Origin: Buttiauxella agrestis
GTDB lineage: Bacteria; Pseudomonadota; Gammaproteobacteria; Enterobacterales; Enterobacteriaceae
Assembly (NCBI RefSeq): GCF_900446255.1
Contig: NZ_UIGI01000001.1
Location: 2,630,763-2,694,762, forward strand
Direction of reading: 5' to 3'
Length of the DNA stretch: 64,000 nucleotides
In this document: one piece after another, positions 28,734 to 63,370 of the stretch
Layout: the number at the start of each line of letters is the position of its first letter
Numbering within the stretch: position 1 is the stretch's first letter
The notes under the pieces: generated by a model
Database searches by the model: none
What the model was told of the DNA's origin: nothing
Seen by the model: the letters and a program-made list of their open reading frames with translations, nothing else
Made by a program: the position numbers and the translations under genes

Positions 28734-31700
28734 TTACCACTGATAACCGACGCCGACTGCTGCGCCCAGATCACCCTGGCTGGTTGTGGTTCCTGAAAGC
28801 TTAGTTACCCACTTACCGTTATCAGAAATGGTTGAAACACCCAGCGCGACCGCTGATTCACCCTGATAGGTGCCGCCACCCATACTGACCATGCTCGCAC
28901 CCGGTTGATAAGGCTGCGGCAAACTTGCCATCGCCATCGCACCGGAAATACCCGCGCTCATTTTGTCTTTCTGATCGTCAACCATATTTTTGAGATCGTT
29001 AAACTTGTTGTCAGTGTAGTTGTAAGCATTACCCACACCTTGCTTCAGCTGATTCACGTTCACTGCATCCGTACCCTGCGTACCCGCAGCGACGTTGGCA
29101 ATCTGGCGCTCACCGCCGACGGAACCGACAGACACGCTGTTATCGCGATCGGTGACTGAGTTATTACCCAGCGCGACCGAGTTGTTATGCGTGGCTTTAG
29201 AACTCGTCCCCAGCGCCAGGCTGTTATCACCGCTGGCAACCGCACCCGCACCACCAGCAACTGCATCTTTACCGGTTGGTTTTGGCTTAGGCAGATTGCT
29301 GGTATTGTTCACCTGGAACATGCCATCAGTACCATTGGAAATGTTGGTCACGCTGTTGTTAACCACATCCAACTGGTGCTTGTTCACTGCATCACTTGGA
29401 TTCACACCCTCAGCTACGTTAGTGATGGTAGTGCCGCCGGTATGCGTGGAGTTATCGTAAGTGTCTCCGCCCATCACTACTTTGTTGTAGTTCACCGTAC
29501 CGTCAACGTTGGTCTCATACTTCACCGAGCCTTTATCAATGGTACTGATAACGCCGCTGATATTGCCAATCGCCTGGTTGGTCGCATTCAACTGGGAACC
29601 GTTCACCGCGTCAGTGCTGTTAGCATCAATACGGCCCGCCGCCACGTTGGTGATGGTGCGCTCTGCCCCTTCGCTACCAATACTCAGCGTGCTGGTTGGT
29701 GTTGTGCCTGCAAAATCATAGTGATTACCGGCGATAGAGATACCGGTTGTCGCCACCGCTGCCGCAGTGGTTGAACCCGCACCCAGTGCGATGTCACCCG
29801 TATTGCTGGCAATCGCGCCTACACCCATTGCAACACTGTTCTCACCCACTGATTGAGCATTTTGCCCCAGTGCCATGCTGCCATTGCCGATAGATTTAGC
29901 TTCATCGCCCATCGCAATAGAGCCGTTGCCCATGGACTGTGCGTTCGGCCCGACCGCGATAGAATCCATACCGCTCGCCACGGAATCAGCTTTCACCGAA
30001 TTCGCATGGAAGTACTTGGTGCCGCCGGTGTAAATATTGGTGGTCGCATCATTAAGTTGCTGAACGTTCACCACATCGCTGTCATCAATACCGTAGGCCA
30101 CGTTGGTAATACGTGTGCCGCCCGTTTTGGTGACGTTGTTGTAGGTATCGCCCGCTAATTTAATGCTGTTGTAGTTCACCGAGCCGTCATTATTGATTTC
30201 GTACTTAACAGACCCTTTATCCAGCGTGTTGATGGCTGAATTGGTGGCGAAAAGTTGAGAACCATTGATAGCGTCAGTGCTTTGCGCGCTTAAACGTCCG
30301 GCGGCTACGTTAGTGATGGTCCGCTCACGGCCCAGACTGCCCACGCTGACGGTGCTTAATGGGTTGATACCAGCAAACACATAATCGACATCGGCAATTT
30401 TCGCGCCGCTGGTGCCAACGGCAATATCAGTGATAGAGCCTGAACCCAGTGCCACATCGTCGGCATTATTCGCCTGCGCTTCACGCCCCATCGCCAGGCT
30501 GCTTTCACCCTTAGAAACCGCGTTATAACCCAGGGCGGTGCTGCCCTGACCTTCCGCAGAAGAATCGCTCGCCGCCAGACCCGCTTCGTTGGTACGAACA
30601 TAACGGATGCCCGTGCCGTGAACATTGGTATAAGACGTGCTGGTGTCACCTGCGATGTTTGTCAGCGTGTCACCAATATTAGTCACGTTGGTGTTGGTCT
30701 CATTAAGCTGAGACACGTTCACCGCATCGCTGTCATCCACGCCACGTGCCAGGTTGGTGATTTTCGTACCACCAGTTTTGGTGACGCTGTTGTACGTATC
30801 GCCGCCCATCGTGACGCTGTTGTAGTTGATCGTGCCGTCCGGGTTGAGGTCGTATTTAACGGCGTTTTGATCAAGGACATCGATAGCGGTGTTGGTGGCA
30901 AACAGTTGCGAACCGTTCACGCCATCAGTGCTGGTTGCACTTAAACGCCCTGCCGCCACATTGGTCAGCGTACGTTCAGCGCCAGCAGCACCGATACTGA
31001 CTGTGCCAATCGGAGCCATACCTGCAAACAGGTAATCAGTGCCTGCAATGTTGGTGCCGGTCGTCGCTACAGCGGCTTCAGTTTTTGCACCATCACCCAA
31101 AGCCACACTGCGTGCGACATCCGCAACCGCACCCATACCGATAGCAATTGAATCCAGAGCCGAGGCCACGGAATCAGTTCCGGTTGAGTTAGCGTGGAAG
31201 TATTTGGTACCCGTCGCGTAAATATTGCTGATGTTGGTATTGGTTTCAGTCAACTGTGAATAGTTAACCGCATCGCTTGGTGCAACACCGTTTGCCACGT
31301 TAGTGATGGTTGTGCCACCCACATGCGTGGAGTTGTCGTAAGTTGTACCACCCAGGGTCACGCTGTTGTGGTTGGTGCCTGGGTCATACATTACGGCGTC
31401 AGCGGTTGCGCTACCGACAGCACCTTTAAGCTGCGCCACGTTGACGGCGTCGCTGTCCACTGTACCGGCAGCCAGGCCGTTTAACTGACGGAACTTCCCG
31501 GTTGATGCATCACCGATGCTCATCGCACCCAGAGTACTGGTGGTGGCAGTAATCGCTGCGATTTGCGCCGCTGTGGCGCCGGTTGGCATAAACCCGGTGA
31601 TACCACCGGCGGTATTGGCTACCGAGAAACTCCCTAACGCGATTGAGTCATTAGCGGATGCATTTGCGCTGGCGCCACGTAGCTCGTTAGACCCGAGAGC

Positions 31701-33848
31701 CACCGAACCGGCGCCGCTGGCAACAGTTCCACTACCTAATGCGGCAGAGAAATAACCCTGAGCCTTACTTTCGAAGCCCAGACCAATTGAAAAACCGCCG
31801 TCTGCGACAGAGTTACGCCCCATGGCAATGTTGTTACCGCTCGTGTTGGTAAGTGCCTTACCAGCAACACCACCAGCAAGTGAAATATTATTTACACCGT
31901 AGCTTTTGGAGCCTTCACCCAGAGCCAGCGCACTCGTGCCTGTTGCTATCGTGTCCGCACCAATTGCTGTCGCCGCACGAGAACCCGATGTGGCACTTGC
32001 ATTATTACCCATTGCAATCGAATTCGAACCATTTGCCGTGGCAGACAAGCCCTGAGCAATGGAGTTAACCCCATTCGCCATTGCCTGTGGACCAACGGCA
32101 ATACTGTCTACGCCAAGCGCCTGAGAATCAGCCTTCGTTGAATTCGCATGGAAATACTTGGTGCCGGTGGTGTAGATATTGTTAATCGACTGATTTGTCT
32201 CATTCAACTGGGAGACGTTCACCGCATCGCTGTCGTCCACACCACGTGCAACGTTGGTGATTTTAGTTCCGCCAGTTTTGTTGACGCTGTTATAGGTGTC
32301 GCCGCCCATCGTGACGGAGTTGTAGTTCACTGAGCCATCTGGATTCAGGTCATACTTAACAGCGTTTTCATCCAAAAGATTAATGGCTGAATTGGTTGCG
32401 TAAAGCTGAGAACCGTTAATGCCATCAGTGCTGGTATCACTCACACGACCTGCCGCCACATTGGTGATGGTGCGTTCAGCGCCTACATCACCAATGCTAA
32501 GGGTACTGAGTGGAGAAATACCTGCAAAATCATACGACTTACCGGCAATGATCGTGCTAGCTGTTGCTACAGCAGCCGTGGTGATGGAGTCAGAACCTAA
32601 AGCGATGCTGCCATCTTCGTTGGCTTGCGCGCCATCGCCCAGGGCAAGCGCTTTATCACCGATGGCTTTGGTGCTGCCACCAATGCCAATGGCACCTTCG
32701 CCCATAGCAACCGCGCGATCACCCACTGCAATACTGTTAATCGCTTCTGCACTGGCATAGGCGCCAATTGCCGTGCTTGATGCCTCATGAGCTTTAGCTC
32801 CAGAGCCAATAGCGGTGGAGTCAACATCACTTGACTCAGCTTCCCATCCAATTGCAATCGCCCCAGTACTATTTGGGTTTGACGCCGCCGCGAGTGTTTT
32901 AGCATCCACACCAATTGCAATGCTATTGGTTGCATCAGCATTTGCACCAAAACCGGTCGCGATACTCGATTCTTTGGTTGCCTTTGCTTGATAACCCGTA
33001 GCAATGGAGCGCTGTGCCTGAGCAGATGCCTTGTTGCCAATCGCTATAGAGTCCATTGCTTGAGCATCCGCATACGTACCAATAGCGGCTGAATTCGCAC
33101 CGGAAGATGTGGAGTAATTACCAAAAGCGAGTGAGTTTTCACCAATACCTTGCGTATACCAACCCACGGCAGTACTGGTACTACCTGTAGCTTTTGAACC
33201 GCCACCAATGGCGGTACTGTGCATAGCCGTAGCATCAGTTTTATCACCAATTGCCACCGCACTGTCACCATAAGCCTTTGTTGTTCGGCCAATAGCCACA
33301 GAGTTCAGGTGAGTTGACTCAGCATTGGCACCAATTGCCGTTGCGCCATCAAAGCTGGCGATTGATTCCACACCAAGGGCAATCGCACCCGCCGATTTTA
33401 AAGAAGATGCAGAGGCACGAGCACCGATGGCTATGGTGTAAATACCCGTAGTTGTAGAATCTGTACCTAACGCAATCGACGACACGCCATTGGCTGTTGC
33501 TGTGTCACCTAATGCCACGCTCGATACACCAACGGAATTGCTGCTTTGGCCCACGGCGGTCGACCTGAATCCAGTGGCTGACGCACCACTACCAAAAGCC
33601 GTATTGCTTGCAGAACCATTATCAGATGCCGCAGTGCCACCGTTTACCAGAGAAGCGCCTGCCACTGTATAAGCATTCGCCAGTTGTGAGGTTCCCAGGG
33701 CTGCTAAAACAAGCCCACCCGCGGTAATAGCTTTAAGGGACAAACGACGTGGACAGTTTTTGCCCTTGCCTTTTGCCGCAGAAAATTCACCCGCGACAAC
33801 CCAGGCGCGCTGCGCCGAGTTCCATACCAAACGATAAATCTTATTCAT
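28734..33848 (-). CDS. Trimeric autotransporter adhesin (YadA-like)
   Basis: 1704 aa type Vc adhesin. The N-terminus MNKIYRLVWNSAQRAWVV is the extended signal peptide (ESPR). Cleavage is expected after the QLANA segment. A long head of Hep_Hag/YadA-head repeats (AIG/ALG every 14-16 residues) covers about residues 60-430. Neck/stalk modules with the ERTITNVAAGR...NGSQL signature recur near residues 450, 955, 1170 and 1390, separated by further head repeats. The C-terminal ~90 residues are the YadA anchor (AGISGAMAMASLPQ, ending GAAVGVGYQW), a four-strand contribution to a 12-strand barrel. It binds host or environmental surfaces or makes biofilm; no ligand can be read from sequence. It has the ribosome site ATGGAG, preceded by a small hairpin at 33866-33879. 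Confidence 0.96.
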   Translation of the reverse strand: MNKIYRLVWNSAQRAWVVAGEFSAAKGKGKNCPRRLSLKAITAGGLVLAALGTSQLANAYTVAGASLVNGGTAASDNGSASNTAFGSGASATGFRSTAVGQSSNSVGVSSVALGDTATANGVSSIALGTDSTTTGIYTIAIGARASASSLKSAGAIALGVESIASFDGATAIGANAESTHLNSVAIGRTTKAYGDSAVAIGDKTDATAMHSTAIGGGSKATGSTSTAVGWYTQGIGENSLAFGNYSTSSGANSAAIGTYADAQAMDSIAIGNKASAQAQRSIATGYQAKATKESSIATGFGANADATNSIAIGVDAKTLAAASNPNSTGAIAIGWEAESSDVDSTAIGSGAKAHEASSTAIGAYASAEAINSIAVGDRAVAMGEGAIGIGGSTKAIGDKALALGDGAQANEDGSIALGSDSITTAAVATASTIIAGKSYDFAGISPLSTLSIGDVGAERTITNVAAGRVSDTSTDGINGSQLYATNSAINLLDENAVKYDLNPDGSVNYNSVTMGGDTYNSVNKTGGTKITNVARGVDDSDAVNVSQLNETNQSINNIYTTGTKYFHANSTKADSQALGVDSIAVGPQAMANGVNSIAQGLSATANGSNSIAMGNNASATSGSRAATAIGADTIATGTSALALGEGSKSYGVNNISLAGGVAGKALTNTSGNNIAMGRNSVADGGFSIGLGFESKAQGYFSAALGSGTVASGAGSVALGSNELRGASANASANDSIALGSFSVANTAGGITGFMPTGATAAQIAAITATTSTLGAMSIGDASTGKFRQLNGLAAGTVDSDAVNVAQLKGAVGSATADAVMYDPGTNHNSVTLGGTTYDNSTHVGGTTITNVANGVAPSDAVNYSQLTETNTNISNIYATGTKYFHANSTGTDSVASALDSIAIGMGAVADVARSVALGDGAKTEAAVATTGTNIAGTDYLFAGMAPIGTVSIGAAGAERTLTNVAAGRLSATSTDGVNGSQLFATNTAIDVLDQNAVKYDLNPDGTINYNSVTMGGDTYNSVTKTGGTKITNLARGVDDSDAVNVSQLNETNTNVTNIGDTLTNIAGDTSTSYTNVHGTGIRYVRTNEAGLAASDSSAEGQGSTALGYNAVSKGESSLAMGREAQANNADDVALGSGSITDIAVGTSGAKIADVDYVFAGINPLSTVSVGSLGRERTITNVAAGRLSAQSTDAINGSQLFATNSAINTLDKGSVKYEINNDGSVNYNSIKLAGDTYNNVTKTGGTRITNVAYGIDDSDVVNVQQLNDATTNIYTGGTKYFHANSVKADSVASGMDSIAVGPNAQSMGNGSIAMGDEAKSIGNGSMALGQNAQSVGENSVAMGVGAIASNTGDIALGAGSTTAAAVATTGISIAGNHYDFAGTTPTSTLSIGSEGAERTITNVAAGRIDANSTDAVNGSQLNATNQAIGNISGVISTIDKGSVKYETNVDGTVNYNKVVMGGDTYDNSTHTGGTTITNVAEGVNPSDAVNKHQLDVVNNSVTNISNGTDGMFQVNNTSNLPKPKPTGKDAVAGGAGAVASGDNSLALGTSSKATHNNSVALGNNSVTDRDNSVSVGSVGGERQIANVAAGTQGTDAVNVNQLKQGVGNAYNYTDNKFNDLKNMVDDQKDKMSAGISGAMAMASLPQPYQPGASMVSMGGGTYQGESAVALGVSTISDNGKWVTKLSGTTTSQGDLGAAVGVGYQW

Positions 33849-57946: not shown

Positions 57947-59212
57947 TTAATGCCAGTCCTTACCTTTGACACGCTCGAGGCGTTTTTGCAGATCCGCCAC
58001 GGCAGTTTTGCCGTCGGTTCCACCATTTAGCACTTTAAAGGTCACGTTAAAGATGGCGTTAGAGACGCGCGGATACTGGCTTTGGGTTGCCGTTGCCGGG
58101 CGAGGAACCGCATTGGCGAAGATATCTTTAAACATGGTTAAATGCGGTGCAGCTTCCAGAACCGCTTTATCCTCATACAGCGCTGAACGCGTCGGGGCGA
58201 AGCCTAAATACTTAAGCTGCATCTTCTGCGAATCGGCATCGGTGAGGATTTTCAGCAGCGCAATCGCTGCATCTTTGTTTTTGGTATTGGCGTTAATCGA
58301 CCACTGCCAGCCACCCAGGGCGTTGGCTGATTTACCCTCCGGCCCGGCAGGAAGTGGCGCTACGCCGACTTTGCCTTTGAGCGGGCTGTCAGCGCCTTGC
58401 GAGAGCAGATACGCATACGGCCAGTTGCGCATAAACAGCGCATCGCCATTCTGGAACACCGCTCGCGACTCTTCTTCTTTGTAACCCAGTGCGCCTTTCG
58501 GCGTGATTTTACCCATCCAGCCTGCGACCATATCCAGCGCTGCCGCAGCCTTCGGATTATTAATGGTCACGTTCCCTTTTTCGTCGATAAAGGTGCCGCC
58601 GCCGTAGGAATCAATCCACTCCAGCGCGTTACAAGTCAGCCCTTCATACGATTTCCCCTGGAAGATCATCCCCCAGAAGTTTTTGTGTCCGGCCTTGCGT
58701 TCTTCGGCCTGGATTTTGGTGGCGATACGCGTCAGATCTTCCCAGGTTTTCGGCGGCTGCTCGTTGTATTTTTCCAGCAGGTCTTTGCGGTAATAGAGCA
58801 CGCCGGTATCCAGATACGCTGGCACCGCTTTCACTTTGCCGTTCACCGTGTCATTCGCCCACGGGCCGGGGAAGAAATCACCTTTCATATCGCCCACGGC
58901 ATCGGTTAAATCGAGGGTTTGCTTATCGAGCAGGCCGACCCAGATGGTGTCGGACTGGAACAGATCCACCGCTTTTTCATCTTTGGCGGCAAACAGTTGC
59001 TGGAGCAGCGCCAGTTTTTCGTCAGACGCCGCCGGGAACTCGATAAACTCCAGCTTGTTGCTGGTCTGTTTTTCAAAACGGTCTTTGACGTAGTTGCAGT
59101 ATTCCTTACCGCCAGGGGAGATCGGGCATTCCATACGCAGAGTATCGGCAAGCGCGGCGTTAGAAACGCCCGCCAGCGCTAAGGTAATAAGACTTAACGT
59201 CAGCTTTTTCAT
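57947..59212 (-). CDS. Extracellular sugar-binding protein of a CUT1 ABC transporter
   Basis: 421 aa with signal peptide (MKKLTLSLITLALAGVSNAALA) and SBP_bac_1 fold: VDLFQSDTIWVGLL, VPAYLDTGVLYYRKDLLEKY, PPKTWEDLTRIATK, FQNGDALFMRNWPYAYLL, GGWQWSINANTKNKDAAI. It resembles binding proteins for trehalose/maltose/palatinose-type disaccharides. First gene of a six-gene unit with two permeases, an ATPase and two GH13 hydrolases. Confidence 0.93.
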   Translation of the reverse strand: MKKLTLSLITLALAGVSNAALADTLRMECPISPGGKEYCNYVKDRFEKQTSNKLEFIEFPAASDEKLALLQQLFAAKDEKAVDLFQSDTIWVGLLDKQTLDLTDAVGDMKGDFFPGPWANDTVNGKVKAVPAYLDTGVLYYRKDLLEKYNEQPPKTWEDLTRIATKIQAEERKAGHKNFWGMIFQGKSYEGLTCNALEWIDSYGGGTFIDEKGNVTINNPKAAAALDMVAGWMGKITPKGALGYKEEESRAVFQNGDALFMRNWPYAYLLSQGADSPLKGKVGVAPLPAGPEGKSANALGGWQWSINANTKNKDAAIALLKILTDADSQKMQLKYLGFAPTRSALYEDKAVLEAAPHLTMFKDIFANAVPRPATATQSQYPRVSNAIFNVTFKVLNGGTDGKTAVADLQKRLERVKGKDWH

Positions 59213-59513
59213 TGTTTCCTCTTTTGTTCAGACCAAACCGGAGGGAGTGCGTTTTAAACGCACCAATAAAAAAGCTAGTTAACAATCGAACCAGACGGCA
59301 ACTTAGCTGGCTAACCTTTGCGCGATTTCTCGACGTGGTGCACGTAACGCTATTTTTTATTGAGCTTTTGTGTGGGACGGGCTACGGGGGTCATTGAGTG
59401 GGCGTTTGTACACGGAATGCTGTATTTCGAACGAGTTAATAAGTTCAGATTAAAAGTCGGTTTATCCAGGGTATATTCCAATCAATAACGTTTCTTTAAT
59501 TAATGGATTAATT
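59213..59513. other. Divergent intergenic region between the alpha-glucoside operon and the candidate toxin gene
   Basis: 301 bases holding promoters for both directions. A palindrome GTGCGTTT-T-AAACGCAC at 59247-59263, about 35 bases before the binding-protein start, is a possible operator. The DNA turns AT-rich towards the right. Confidence 0.5.
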
Positions 59514-60695
59514 ATGACTATTTATCAACTCAGCACGCGTATCAAATCGAATGCTCCACCCGATTCCCTGGTCTATGATTTATCTATTTATCGGATGGAT
59601 TCGGATAGAAATAAATACTCTCTGATAGATGTGAAGCAACAACCTATTCAGGGAAATTATGAAACTCTAAAACACCCAACCGATAATATTAGCGAGTCAC
59701 TTTCGACAATTTATATTATGGAAGTCACGCTTTATCGCAAAACGATGCTGCATACGCTGTGTGTTACTGCTTCACCGTTTACCCGGATGTACACATTAGA
59801 AGAGTTTGTATCCGGGAAAGCCTGGTCTATCGTTAAACGAGAAAACCCTTGTTATTTTGTATCAACGGGCACATCAAAACTGGAAAGTGAAGGTGGAAAG
59901 GTTGTAAAAGTAAATATATCCAGACCGGAAAGGCCGTTTATTGCCGAACAATATCCTATTGGAGACCCGCAGGATCCATTTGAAAAAAACATTATTGAAG
60001 AGCAAATAAAAAATAGATTTAACCAAGCTACATTCCCCGATCAGAATGCAAGTAGCTTATGTGGACCAGCGGCATTTTTCTATTGCCTGCAAATGGACAG
60101 GCCAGATGTTTATGCGCAAGCTGCAAAAGAAATTTGGCAATTTGGGAAAACTAAAATTGGCGCACTTGAGATCGCACCGGGGGACGGTTGTCGGCATCCT
60201 GAGGGTTCATTTTTTAGAAATGGAACCCGCCCCAAAATACTGGGACTGGACTGGATGACACTGGCGAGTCTGAGAGACTCCGAAAATAGCATATTGGACT
60301 TCGATACACTCGATTCCCCCGTTGCTGGAATCACCCTATGGCAAACGCTAACAGAATGGTTTGAGAAAGCGGGATATATAAAAGTGTTCAGTAATGTCGG
60401 AGCTACCCAGGCTGGAATTCAAGGCATGCAAGATCTAAATAACTATGTGCAGAAGGGATATAAAGTTGTTTCACTCATCAATGACAGCTTATTAGAAGGG
60501 AGTTCTTCCGAACGGGCGACATATCCTACTCACTGGATTGTCTGGGGTGGCCCGGCTGTTCAGGGAATAGACAGGGCGGTACATCTAAATTTATTTTCAT
60601 GGGGTCAGATGCAAGATCAGATAAAACCTGGCAAAGATCTCTCTTTTTTCATTAATCGATTTTTCGGAGGGCTGGTTTTTAAACCAATCAAATAA
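59514..60695 (+). CDS. Unrecognised protein with papain-like Cys/His arrangement; candidate toxin/effector
   Basis: 393 aa, no signal peptide and no membrane helix. The N-terminal ~180 residues are beta-rich and unrecognised. From about residue 175 the motif SSLCGPAAFFYCL (Cys183) and later THWIVWGGP (His340) match the Cys-Gly-Pro-Ala and His-W/hydrophobic arrangement of papain/C39-like or NlpC-like cysteine hydrolases. A possible third residue is Asn or Asp in HLNLFSWG. Codon use is more AT-rich than the flanks and the ribosome site is weak. It is followed 2 bases later by a lipoprotein gene. Taken together this looks like an interbacterial (for example type VI-delivered) peptidase/amidase with immunity protein, but no delivery domain (PAAR, Rhs, MIX) is visible. 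Confidence 0.75.
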   Translation: MTIYQLSTRIKSNAPPDSLVYDLSIYRMDSDRNKYSLIDVKQQPIQGNYETLKHPTDNISESLSTIYIMEVTLYRKTMLHTLCVTASPFTRMYTLEEFVSGKAWSIVKRENPCYFVSTGTSKLESEGGKVVKVNISRPERPFIAEQYPIGDPQDPFEKNIIEEQIKNRFNQATFPDQNASSLCGPAAFFYCLQMDRPDVYAQAAKEIWQFGKTKIGALEIAPGDGCRHPEGSFFRNGTRPKILGLDWMTLASLRDSENSILDFDTLDSPVAGITLWQTLTEWFEKAGYIKVFSNVGATQAGIQGMQDLNNYVQKGYKVVSLINDSLLEGSSSERATYPTHWIVWGGPAVQGIDRAVHLNLFSWGQMQDQIKPGKDLSFFINRFFGGLVFKPIK

Positions 60696-60697
60696 AC

Positions 60698-61138
60698 ATG
60701 TGGATATTACGTAGTCTTATATTAGGTGGGCTTTTCTGTGTTTCAGCATGCAGCATGTTAAGCCCGAAGGCTGAATATATTCCAGAGGGGGACGAACTAA
60801 AAGCAGCCGTTGTTGGCGTTCCTTATCTTTTAAAGATCAACATCCTGGGGGGAAGAGTTATTGGCGGATGGTACGAATCCGAACCTGATTACAAACCAGG
60901 TTTAGTCACACCTAATGATGCTGGAATTTTCCTTCGCAACTGTCGTTTACCCGAGAGCAAAACGGAATCTTTCTTGCCTAAGACTCCACTATATAATGGT
61001 AATTGTATTGAAGTTTATGGCACTCCTACAAAAGCAGGAGAGCTAAAAATAAAAATTGATGGCGGTATGTACGGCAGCATGATCGCGCCAGCCAGCGAAT
61101 TTAGCAAAGAATACAAAATAAACGTTATTCAGCCATAA
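60698..61138 (+). CDS. Small lipoprotein downstream of the candidate toxin; candidate immunity protein
   Basis: 146 aa with lipoprotein signal (GLFCVSAC, Cys18); Ser at +2 predicts outer-membrane sorting. The mature part is beta-rich with a short Ig-like start (VVGVPYLLKINILGG) and two further Cys (NCRLPES, GNCIEVYG) that may form a disulphide, and a GTPTKAGELKIKI strand typical of Ig-like repeats. The start lies 2 bases after the previous stop, so the two proteins are made together. An exported partner of a non-exported enzyme fits self-protection in the periplasm (inference). Confidence 0.78.
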   Translation: MWILRSLILGGLFCVSACSMLSPKAEYIPEGDELKAAVVGVPYLLKINILGGRVIGGWYESEPDYKPGLVTPNDAGIFLRNCRLPESKTESFLPKTPLYNGNCIEVYGTPTKAGELKIKIDGGMYGSMIAPASEFSKEYKINVIQP

Positions 61139-61152
61139 AATCTACCCCCTAA

Positions 61153-61186
61153 ACAGAAGGATCTCTGAGAGATCCTTTCTGTTTTT
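61153..61186 (+). terminator. Rho-independent terminator of the candidate toxin-immunity unit
   Basis: Stem ACAGAA-GGATCTCT / GAGATCC-TTTCTGT followed by a run of five T, 15 bases after the stop codon. Confidence 0.85.
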
Positions 61187-61193
61187 CAAATGG

Positions 61194-62309
61194 TCACCAC
61201 GCCAGCCACTCCCCGCCCCGGTTGCTGCTCTCACGCACGGTTTCGATAAACCTCATGCCCGCAAGCCCTTCGGCGATACCCGGCAGCCAGGGCGCGTCGC
61301 CACCGCGAATTTTAACCGCCGCTTCACGGTAAATTTGCGCGAAACCTTCCAGATATCCTTCCGGATGCCCGGCGGGTGTACGGCACTGATGGCGTACGGA
61401 ATCATGATTATTCACACCGTTTCGCGTGACAACGTAACTATTGCCATGATGAGGGTGAATTTCAAGAATTTCAGGCTGTTGCTGGCGGAAACCTATCGTC
61501 GCCCTGCTTCCCACAATGCGCAGACGCAGGTCGTTTTCGAAACCGGGAGCCACCTGGCTTGCCCATAACCGCCCACGAGCGCCGTTGGCGTAACGCATTT
61601 CAGCGTACACTTCGTCGTCCAAAACGCGTCCCGGAATGCGCGTCAGCAGTTCGCCGCGCACGGTTTCCGGTTCCATGCCGCTGACAAACGCTGCCAGTTG
61701 CCAGGCGTGAGTGCCGATATCCCCAATCGCACCGGCCCCCGCCATGGCCGGATTGCCACGCCAGCTCGCCTGTTTGTTGTCGGTCAACTCCAGCCTGTCG
61801 TTGAGCCAGTCCTGCAAATACTCTACTTCGATGGCACGAATATCACCGATTTCACTGTTGGCGATGCGTGCTCGGGCTTCGCGCACCATCGGTAGCGCGC
61901 TGTAATTATGCGTCAGAATAAATTGCAGGCCGGTTGCGTCGATAATCTGCGCCAGCTCCTGGGCCTCGGCGAGCGTTACCCCGAGCGGTTTGTCGCAGAT
62001 CACATGAATGTCGTGTTGCAGAAATACTTTGGCTACCGGAACGTGAAGATGGTTGGGGGTGACAATCGAGACAACTTCAATGCCATCAGGCCGCGCGGCT
62101 TCACGCTCGGCCATCTCCTGCCAACTGGCATAACAGCGGTCGGCTGCGATAAACAGCGCTTCACCGCTGCGTTTTGCCACTTCCGGCGAGGACGAAAACG
62201 CCCCGGCAACCAGTTCAAACTGGTCATCAAGCCGGGCTGCGATACGGTGCACGCCGCCGATAAACGAGCCTTCACCGCCCCCTACCATTCCTAAACGAAG
62301 TCGTTTCAT
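61194..62309 (-). CDS. Gfo/Idh/MocA-family sugar dehydrogenase
   Basis: 371 aa. N-terminal Rossmann motif GMVGGGEGSFIGGVHRIAAR and the family block VSIVTPNHLHVPVAKVFL, followed by CDKPLGVTLAEA (the EKP/CKP catalytic-Lys motif) and the C-terminal oxidoreductase domain with GDIGTHAWQLA (catalytic His). NAD(P)-linked oxidation of a sugar or inositol is expected; substrate unknown. It is last of at least three co-directional genes. Three bases separate it from the isomerase. Confidence 0.92.
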   Translation of the reverse strand: MKRLRLGMVGGGEGSFIGGVHRIAARLDDQFELVAGAFSSSPEVAKRSGEALFIAADRCYASWQEMAEREAARPDGIEVVSIVTPNHLHVPVAKVFLQHDIHVICDKPLGVTLAEAQELAQIIDATGLQFILTHNYSALPMVREARARIANSEIGDIRAIEVEYLQDWLNDRLELTDNKQASWRGNPAMAGAGAIGDIGTHAWQLAAFVSGMEPETVRGELLTRIPGRVLDDEVYAEMRYANGARGRLWASQVAPGFENDLRLRIVGSRATIGFRQQQPEILEIHPHHGNSYVVTRNGVNNHDSVRHQCRTPAGHPEGYLEGFAQIYREAAVKIRGGDAPWLPGIAEGLAGMRFIETVRESSNRGGEWLAW

Positions 62310-62311
62310 GG

Positions 62312-63370
62312 TTACTCCTCCAGCCCGAGCATGCGACGCGCCGCTGATTTGTCGCTGTCGCGCAGCGCAAAATCGTCAAAGGCATATTCGGCAACCGGAA
62401 TAATGTGTTCCGCGATAAATTTTGCCCCTTCGCGCGCGCCTGCGTCACCTGATTTCAGGCAACACTCCCATTCAAGCGTAGCCCATCCGCTGTAGTCATA
62501 TTGCGCCAATTTGCTGAAGATCCCGTTGAAATTAACCTGCCCGTCACCGAGGGAGCGAAAACGCCCAGGGCGATCAATCCATGGCTGATAACCCGCATAA
62601 ACGCCGCTTTTTGGCGATGTCTGAAACTCGGCGTCTTTGACGTGAAAGGCTTTGATTCGTGCGTGGTAATGGTCGATAAAACCGAGGTAATCCATGTGTT
62701 GCAGCAGCATATGGCTTGGATCGTAGAGAATATTGCAGCGCGGGTGGTTATCGACCAGCGCCAGAAAACGCTCGAACGTGACGCCATCATGCAAATCTTC
62801 ACCAGGATGTAGCTCAAAACAGACATCAACACCCGCGTCGTCAAAGCAGTCCAGAATTGGCTTCCAGCGGGCAGCAAGTTCATGAAATGCTTCATCCAGC
62901 AGTTGCTCATTGCGCGGTGGCCACGGGTAAAAATAAGGCCAGGCCAGTGCGCCAGAAAACGTCGCGTGGGCCTTTAGCCCGAGATTTTGTGAGGCTCGAG
63001 CGGCCTGTTTCAGGCTATCGACCGCCCATTGCTGACGCGCAACGGCATCGTGCGCCAGTTCAGGCGGAGCGAAACCGGCAAATGCTGCGTCATACGCCGG
63101 ATGTACGGCCACCAGTTGCCCTTGCAGATGAGTTGAAAGCTCGCTGATTTCCAGTCCAACATTACCCAAAATGCCTCGGATTTCCGTGCAGTACTCCTGG
63201 CTTTCAGCGGCTTTGGCGAGGTCAAAAATATGTGGCAGGTGCGTGGGGATTTGCACCGCTTTGTAGCCCAACCCTGCCGCCCAGGCGGCTAGCGTGTCGA
63301 GCGAGTTGAACGGGGGTTTATCGGATATAAACTGTGAGAGAAATATGGACGGCCCTTTCAGGGTTTTCAT
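62312..63370 (-). CDS. Sugar phosphate isomerase/epimerase (AP endonuclease 2 TIM-barrel family)
   Basis: 352 aa of the xylose-isomerase-like TIM barrel family. Metal-ligand signatures: CFELHPGEDLHDG (Glu), ILYDPSHMLLQHMDYLG (Asp, His), IKAFHVKDAEF (His) and TLEWECCLKSG (Glu). In related operons such enzymes act on 3-keto-sugars or inositols made by Gfo/Idh/MocA dehydrogenases. Its ATG overlaps the stop of the upstream dehydrogenase gene. Confidence 0.9.
   Translation of the reverse strand: MKTLKGPSIFLSQFISDKPPFNSLDTLAAWAAGLGYKAVQIPTHLPHIFDLAKAAESQEYCTEIRGILGNVGLEISELSTHLQGQLVAVHPAYDAAFAGFAPPELAHDAVARQQWAVDSLKQAARASQNLGLKAHATFSGALAWPYFYPWPPRNEQLLDEAFHELAARWKPILDCFDDAGVDVCFELHPGEDLHDGVTFERFLALVDNHPRCNILYDPSHMLLQHMDYLGFIDHYHARIKAFHVKDAEFQTSPKSGVYAGYQPWIDRPGRFRSLGDGQVNFNGIFSKLAQYDYSGWATLEWECCLKSGDAGAREGAKFIAEHIIPVAEYAFDDFALRDSDKSAARRMLGLEE

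Follow-up and report, generated by a model that had tools for sequence, protein, structure and literature searches.

The cassette and its insertion site

The 64,000-nucleotide stretch of Buttiauxella agrestis DNA analysed here (the window) carries on its forward strand two adjacent genes whose products are most likely a papain-like enzyme injected into rival bacteria and a membrane-anchored antidote to it. A preliminary description made from the letters alone had taken them for a candidate effector-immunity pair, and both open reading frames are present with the two-base gap that it gave: the effector gene at 59514..60695 (393 amino acids), a predicted papain-like cysteine hydrolase according to its reading frame, family conservation, AlphaFold model and fold comparison, and the immunity lipoprotein gene at 60698..61138 (146 amino acids), assigned from its lipobox, its model and its fold matches. 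No hydrophobic export signal was seen by eye at the N-terminus of the effector, and the second protein has the lipobox of a lipoprotein (..VSA-C18, codon 60749..60751), with a Cys18 that all 39 relatives in the alignment share. As for the strong terminator proposed behind the pair, a stem-loop with a 10-pair stem and a T-rich tail, as of an intrinsic terminator, lies at 61156..61178; the terminator scan found three such sites in comparison with a mean of 2.5 in shuffles, and so is no evidence by itself. Both genes are AT-richer than their flanks, with a G+C content of 0.42 against 0.54 and 0.58 in the flanking genes and 0.51 in the window.

Using blastn we compared positions 58001-62400 of the window with 12 Buttiauxella genomes. 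In the nine genomes that lack the pair here, homology extends up to 59384-59392 and starts again at 61191-61196, delimiting an inserted block of about 1.8 kb (59386..61195, ends approximate) in the intergenic space between two sugar operons, where the pair had been placed. The pair occupies the site in two genomes (G001 and G010), while in six the flanking homologies are only 0-105 bases apart and in one the site falls at a contig end. Pfam identified other occupants in the remaining three (loci L062, L066 and L067): a TacA1-antitoxin with a GNAT gene in G011 and G006, both of which carry the effector elsewhere in the genome, and a ParD with a ParE-like partner in G004, the ParE match being slightly under the cut-off. 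The site, including that of the window, looks like a chromosomal hotspot for toxin-antidote pairs.

Fold and conserved residues of the effector

The model of the C-terminal domain of the effector (residues 170-393, 60021..60692), the sole part shared with distant relatives, is papain-like, in line with the hydrolase proposed from its motifs; fold comparison returned papain-like matches, and the majority of the 50 listed are protein peptidases. Residues 1 to about 100-114 are modelled with moderate confidence as a beta-sandwich, which we propose as the docking part (residues 1-114, 59514..59855), followed by a disordered linker. This sandwich and linker are what the model shows for the first 180 or so residues, which had been called unfamiliar.

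The two residues singled out beforehand, Cys183 (codon 60060..60062) and His340 (codon 60531..60533), are unchanged in 33 of 33 alignment rows, and their invariance extends to relatives at 26% identity. In the secondary structure of the model the candidate nucleophile Cys183 opens helix 183-195 and His340 opens strand 340-344, an arrangement that together with the papain-like fold agrees with clan CA. Gln177 (codon 60042..60044), invariant in 33/33 and 11/11 aligned rows, is the candidate for the oxyanion hole; it stands six residues ahead of Cys183, a spacing that we take to be that of Gln19 and Cys25 in papain. The third residue of clan CA, an Asn or Asp after the His, would correspond to Phe361 in the F361-S-W-G364 segment (60594..60605), which we presume to occupy the position of papain NSWG on the strength of the motif and not of coordinates. 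F361, W363 and G364 are invariant in 33 of 33 rows, residue 361 is Gln in the distant relatives L099 and L100, and in these alignments a third catalytic residue is apparently not conserved.

The Phe or Gln at the place of the papain Asn favours an alternative in which the papain-like fold, without its catalytic acid, serves as a binding protein, a transglutaminase or an acyltransferase; Tox-Act1 is an example of an NlpC/P60-like toxin that acts on lipids (PMC12994826). We regard this alternative to a hydrolase as improbable, given that Gln177, Cys183 and His340 are all invariant and that four further invariant polar residues, D246, R254, D255 and N258, could act as catalytic helpers.

Searches of Pfam, NCBIfam and PADLOC at E values up to 1 gave no match to either the effector or the lipoprotein, and the effector has no match to PDB sequences within the same limit. 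Sequence-profile matches of the two proteins to the PDB, all with E of 0.7 or more, were taken as chance, and the sole match in PHROGs (E 0.095) belongs to the lipoprotein. Peptidase_C39_2 (PF13529), which gives no Pfam match, reaches a probability of 7.7% in hhalign against the effector, with the CGP motif aligned. A chance origin of the effector reading frame is excluded because it is conserved, in 36 loci and in plasmid records and with Cys183 and His340 invariant.

Relatives, partner lipoprotein and carrier genes

One scan of a genome contig collection yielded these 36 loci, at 48-79% identity to the effector and all under names that we take to be of Enterobacterales. Effector matches were also found in 12 plasmid records (six covering at least 80% of the query), one phage record (a Salmonella houtenae contig) and eight viral contigs. 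In whole-genome samples the effector was present in five of 40 relatives, 11 of 394 genomes of the order, two of 398 of the phylum, both from the same order, and four of the 12 Buttiauxella genomes; no DNA match was obtained in the E. coli genomes. The relatives, spread over many enterobacteria and plasmids, are annotated as 'hypothetical protein'. An ordinary housekeeping gene was rejected because the pair is patchy and inserted.

The order sample contributed six additional full-length relatives (L093-L098, one family) and two with the catalytic part only (L099 and L100), and in the class sample a catalytic profile matched three of 369 genomes and so added L102 and, as a marginal match, L103 (E 4e-5). 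The catalytic-domain relatives L099 (1381-3430), L100 (192-2154) and L102 (1585-3315) have neither the N-terminal domain nor the Ig (immunoglobulin) lipoprotein; each adjoins a protein with a signal-like start as judged by eye, propeller-like in L099 according to weak Pfam matches under the cut-offs. They perhaps represent a second effector-immunity arrangement within the same superfamily.

We scanned 63 loci with effector, immunity and tail profiles, duplicates being kept (several of the viral contigs repeat Xenorhabdus loci, and L043 and L044 are near-identical). In 58 of them the family lipoprotein begins no more than 90 bases after the effector, and in 42 of these 58 the gap is one or two bases. 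The five loci lacking it are L015 and L026, at a contig edge, the decayed L036, and the distant L099 and L100, where another protein stands; more than one immunity-like frame, fragments included, occurs in 11 of the 63. Judged by sequence, the family has the conserved, adjacent and suitably located partner of a predicted effector-immunity pair. Two loci show unusual copies. L037 (1-2724), recorded as a circular 2724-bp 'plasmid' of Klebsiella pneumoniae, combines a fragment of the transthyretin (TTR) tail described below with two lipoprotein genes and an effector gene that is split. Its gene table, which is incomplete, lists four genes and none for replication; the record may represent an excised circle, or it may have arisen in the assembly of a tandem array. 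In Serratia inhibens (L035, 5489-14263) vgrG, effector and immunity genes occur twice in tandem, the second effector being near-identical in its N-terminal part and highly diverged beyond about residue 140.

The lipoprotein model has a mean predicted local distance difference test score of 85 and fold matches of the Ig/cadherin-like sandwich type; the Pfam He_PIG/Ig family expected from its motif was matched by none of 39 members. In 463 of the 465 comparisons among 31 pairs the immunity proteins are less alike than the effectors. Two immunity lineages are distinguished among 23 close pairs, A (eight pairs, the window included) and B (15 pairs), with immunity identities of 54% within A, 60% within B and 37% between them, and effector identities of 72%, 81% and 73%, respectively. 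Since lineage-A effectors are no closer to one another than to those of B, B being tighter, the alignments hint, short of proof, that immunity genes may have been exchanged between lineages. A single effector column, residue 332, tracks the immunity lineages, as against none in 500 relabellings; it lies in a gapped region, with phylogeny uncontrolled, and is a weak lead.

In 47 of the 63 loci the effector is preceded by a gene that closes with a shared tail of 55-60 residues or is a remnant of it; the tail is cut or frame-shifted in L004, L006, L011, L015 and L037, and in L041 it is three kilobases upstream of the effector, separated by an insertion sequence. The 16 loci without it comprise five contig ends (L012, L024, L031, L033 and L078), the decayed L036, two distant relatives and eight orphans (the window, L001, L005, L009, L014, L030, L040 and L057). 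The tail is borne by PAAR proteins, often in tandem, by Hcp in Xenorhabdus and by an 839-residue VgrG in Pantoea, Klebsiella and Serratia. A Pfam run on eight upstream proteins, seven of them tail-bearing, gave six PAAR, one Hcp and one VgrG, and the remaining carriers were classed by similarity, record annotation or eye. The PAAR, Hcp and VgrG tails are mutually homologous by phmmer, with 11 invariant positions in an alignment of 18 tails, and the tail profile matches the solved VgrG2b (6h56, E 1.5e-5) and VgrG 6sjl (E 1.6e-3). Comparable values for whole sequences are also attained by ankyrin proteins (5y4f, 2.1e-5) as a sum over their repeats, none of which passes as a single stretch. Other genes, too, follow such tails in Buttiauxella, so that the tail is not confined to this effector. 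In G001, L082 and L089 hold tail-bearing VgrG-like frames followed by putative effectors of the HExxH type (by eye).

Proposed mechanism, alternatives and related systems

PAAR, Hcp or VgrG genes directly upstream strongly support, on the basis of gene order, the link of the family to type VI secretion that the preliminary description had suspected, and the tail would be a cargo-binding extension of the carrier. We therefore hold with good confidence that the family consists of a type VI secretion cargo effector and a lipoprotein immunity gene. The effector-immunity reading as a whole is supported, toxicity and substrate being putative and drawn from sequence and model; none of the outcomes named beforehand as speaking against it arose. 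In complete loci the TTR-like tail on PAAR, Hcp or VgrG would hold the effector, probably by gripping its N-terminal beta-sandwich, and the projectile would deliver it into the periplasm of the rival. There the papain-like domain, as its fold and residues suggest, would cleave peptide or amide bonds in the envelope through Cys183 and His340. The lipoprotein would be exported, anchored probably in the outer membrane of the producer, and would bind and block the incoming effector, a role that we infer from its position, export signal and divergence. Candidate substrates are the peptides of peptidoglycan and envelope protein, at about equal odds; lipid acyl or transfer chemistry is less likely and takes the remainder.

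The docking proposal relies on the RIX/Rte1 precedent. According to the RIX paper (PMC10435454), a TTR-bearing carrier is required for delivery of another effector, the TTR domain is predicted to bind the first 25 residues of that effector, and the RIX module occurs on PAAR and VgrG too.

Cytosolic toxins usually have cytosolic immunity. The periplasmic site is accordingly favoured over action in the cytosol because the immunity protein is exported: its lipobox Cys is invariant in all 39 relatives, and the protein beside L099, L100 and L102 also has a signal-like start. With the same delivery and fold, the effector could instead act in the cytosol, as Cpe1 does on GyrB/ParE, with the lipoprotein intercepting it in the periplasm; most of its fold matches are protein peptidases, and Cpe1 is a papain-like type VI protease that cleaves cytosolic topoisomerases (PMC12136450). 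We consider such cytosolic action very improbable.

Two observations weigh against a fired weapon in B. agrestis itself: the window copy is an orphan with no carrier gene, hence no hcp, vgrG or PAAR neighbour, and the TssB and TssC sheath genes, present in 10 of the 12 Buttiauxella genomes, were not detected in G001, the nearest genome, or in G003. For this second reason B. agrestis, at least, may not fire the pair, provided that its draft assembly is complete. Buttiauxella might then keep the pair as a store of immunity and resist neighbours carrying the family. A tail-bearing carrier is also absent beside the pair in L014, L057, L001 and L030, and the same site takes TacA/GNAT and ParDE-like pairs. 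On the other hand, the window and all five copies collected from the genus (L054-L058) have an uninterrupted effector frame that retains Gln, Cys and His, the effector-carrying G006, G010 and G011 possess sheath genes, and long VgrG-like frames (judged by eye) with tail matches occur in eight of the 12 genomes. G001 itself holds PAAR and tail-bearing VgrG-like genes, and G002, which has eight Hcp matches, shares the L014 contig with G001 and is probably the same assembly. Such a store, compatible with type VI delivery of the family, is possible and somewhat unlikely. As type VI cargo, the orphan cassette of the window could travel on a tail-bearing VgrG encoded at another locus; alternatively, its role could be chiefly protective.

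Type VI cargo effectors, TTR loading tails and papain-like toxins are already known as principles. We advance more tentatively the idea of a portable warhead cassette of TTR tail, papain-like effector and Ig lipoprotein, found on all three projectile parts, with the canonical third residue dropped, and carrierless in a Buttiauxella hotspot. A description of the family was not found in the literature searched, mostly paper listings without supplements, and a family model is absent from the libraries searched. The Salmonella STox catalogue, with its 45 models (PMC12994826), could prove to be its home; the literature covered also comprised PMC13323088, PMC10673891, PMC10469887 and PMC7991086.

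The effector fold matches include PCAT1, which we take to be, like ComA and LahT, a C39 peptidase. ComA and LahT are the closest structures of Cpe1, which with Cpi1 forms a type VI or contact-dependent inhibition pair and resembles the cassette in combining a papain-like cysteine peptidase toxin with an adjacent immunity gene (PMC12136450). Cpe1 is set apart, by description and not by sequence, in cutting cytosolic GyrB/ParE with a Cys-His-Asp triad (same source), whereas the cassette has a lipoprotein immunity, an N-terminal beta domain and no conserved acid. The papain-like domains Tox-PL1/2/3 and Tox-PLC39 of polymorphic toxin systems have signatures with C, H and D or [DE] (PMC3482391), and are likewise distinguished by description. 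No relation to TseH or Tae was seen in Pfam or PDB-sequence searches, no Pfam match to NlpC/P60 was found, and none of these is among the 50 fold matches listed, which excludes nothing. TseH and the Tae amidases are periplasm-acting cysteine hydrolases with exported immunity, as proposed here, and Tle1 is a phospholipase, unlike the cassette effector. A TseH homologue too follows a TTR-type carrier (PMC10435454), and Tle1 is bound by the TTR domain of its VgrG, again a tail as cargo holder (PMC11148199). A further likeness is with TTR-Rte1-Rti1 of Vibrio, where a unit made up of tail, cargo effector and immunity gene passes among the RIX, PAAR and VgrG carriers needed for delivery (PMC10435454); the cassette tail occurs also on Hcp, and Rte1 is an ADP-ribosyltransferase-like toxin, in contrast to the papain-like domain here.

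The pair represents an effector-immunity family of many enterobacteria and plasmids, unnamed in the libraries searched, and provides a profile for its annotation. One tail on PAAR, Hcp and VgrG before one effector family is a natural experiment on cargo recruitment, in which the tail, rather than the carrier, should set cargo specificity, and the effector offers a way to ask if a papain-like toxin can be active when the usual Asn/Asp is missing. Elsewhere in the window, positions 28734-33848 encode a 1704-residue trimeric autotransporter adhesin-like protein, with YadA-type repeats recognised by eye, which adjoins an OmpA-like lipoprotein.
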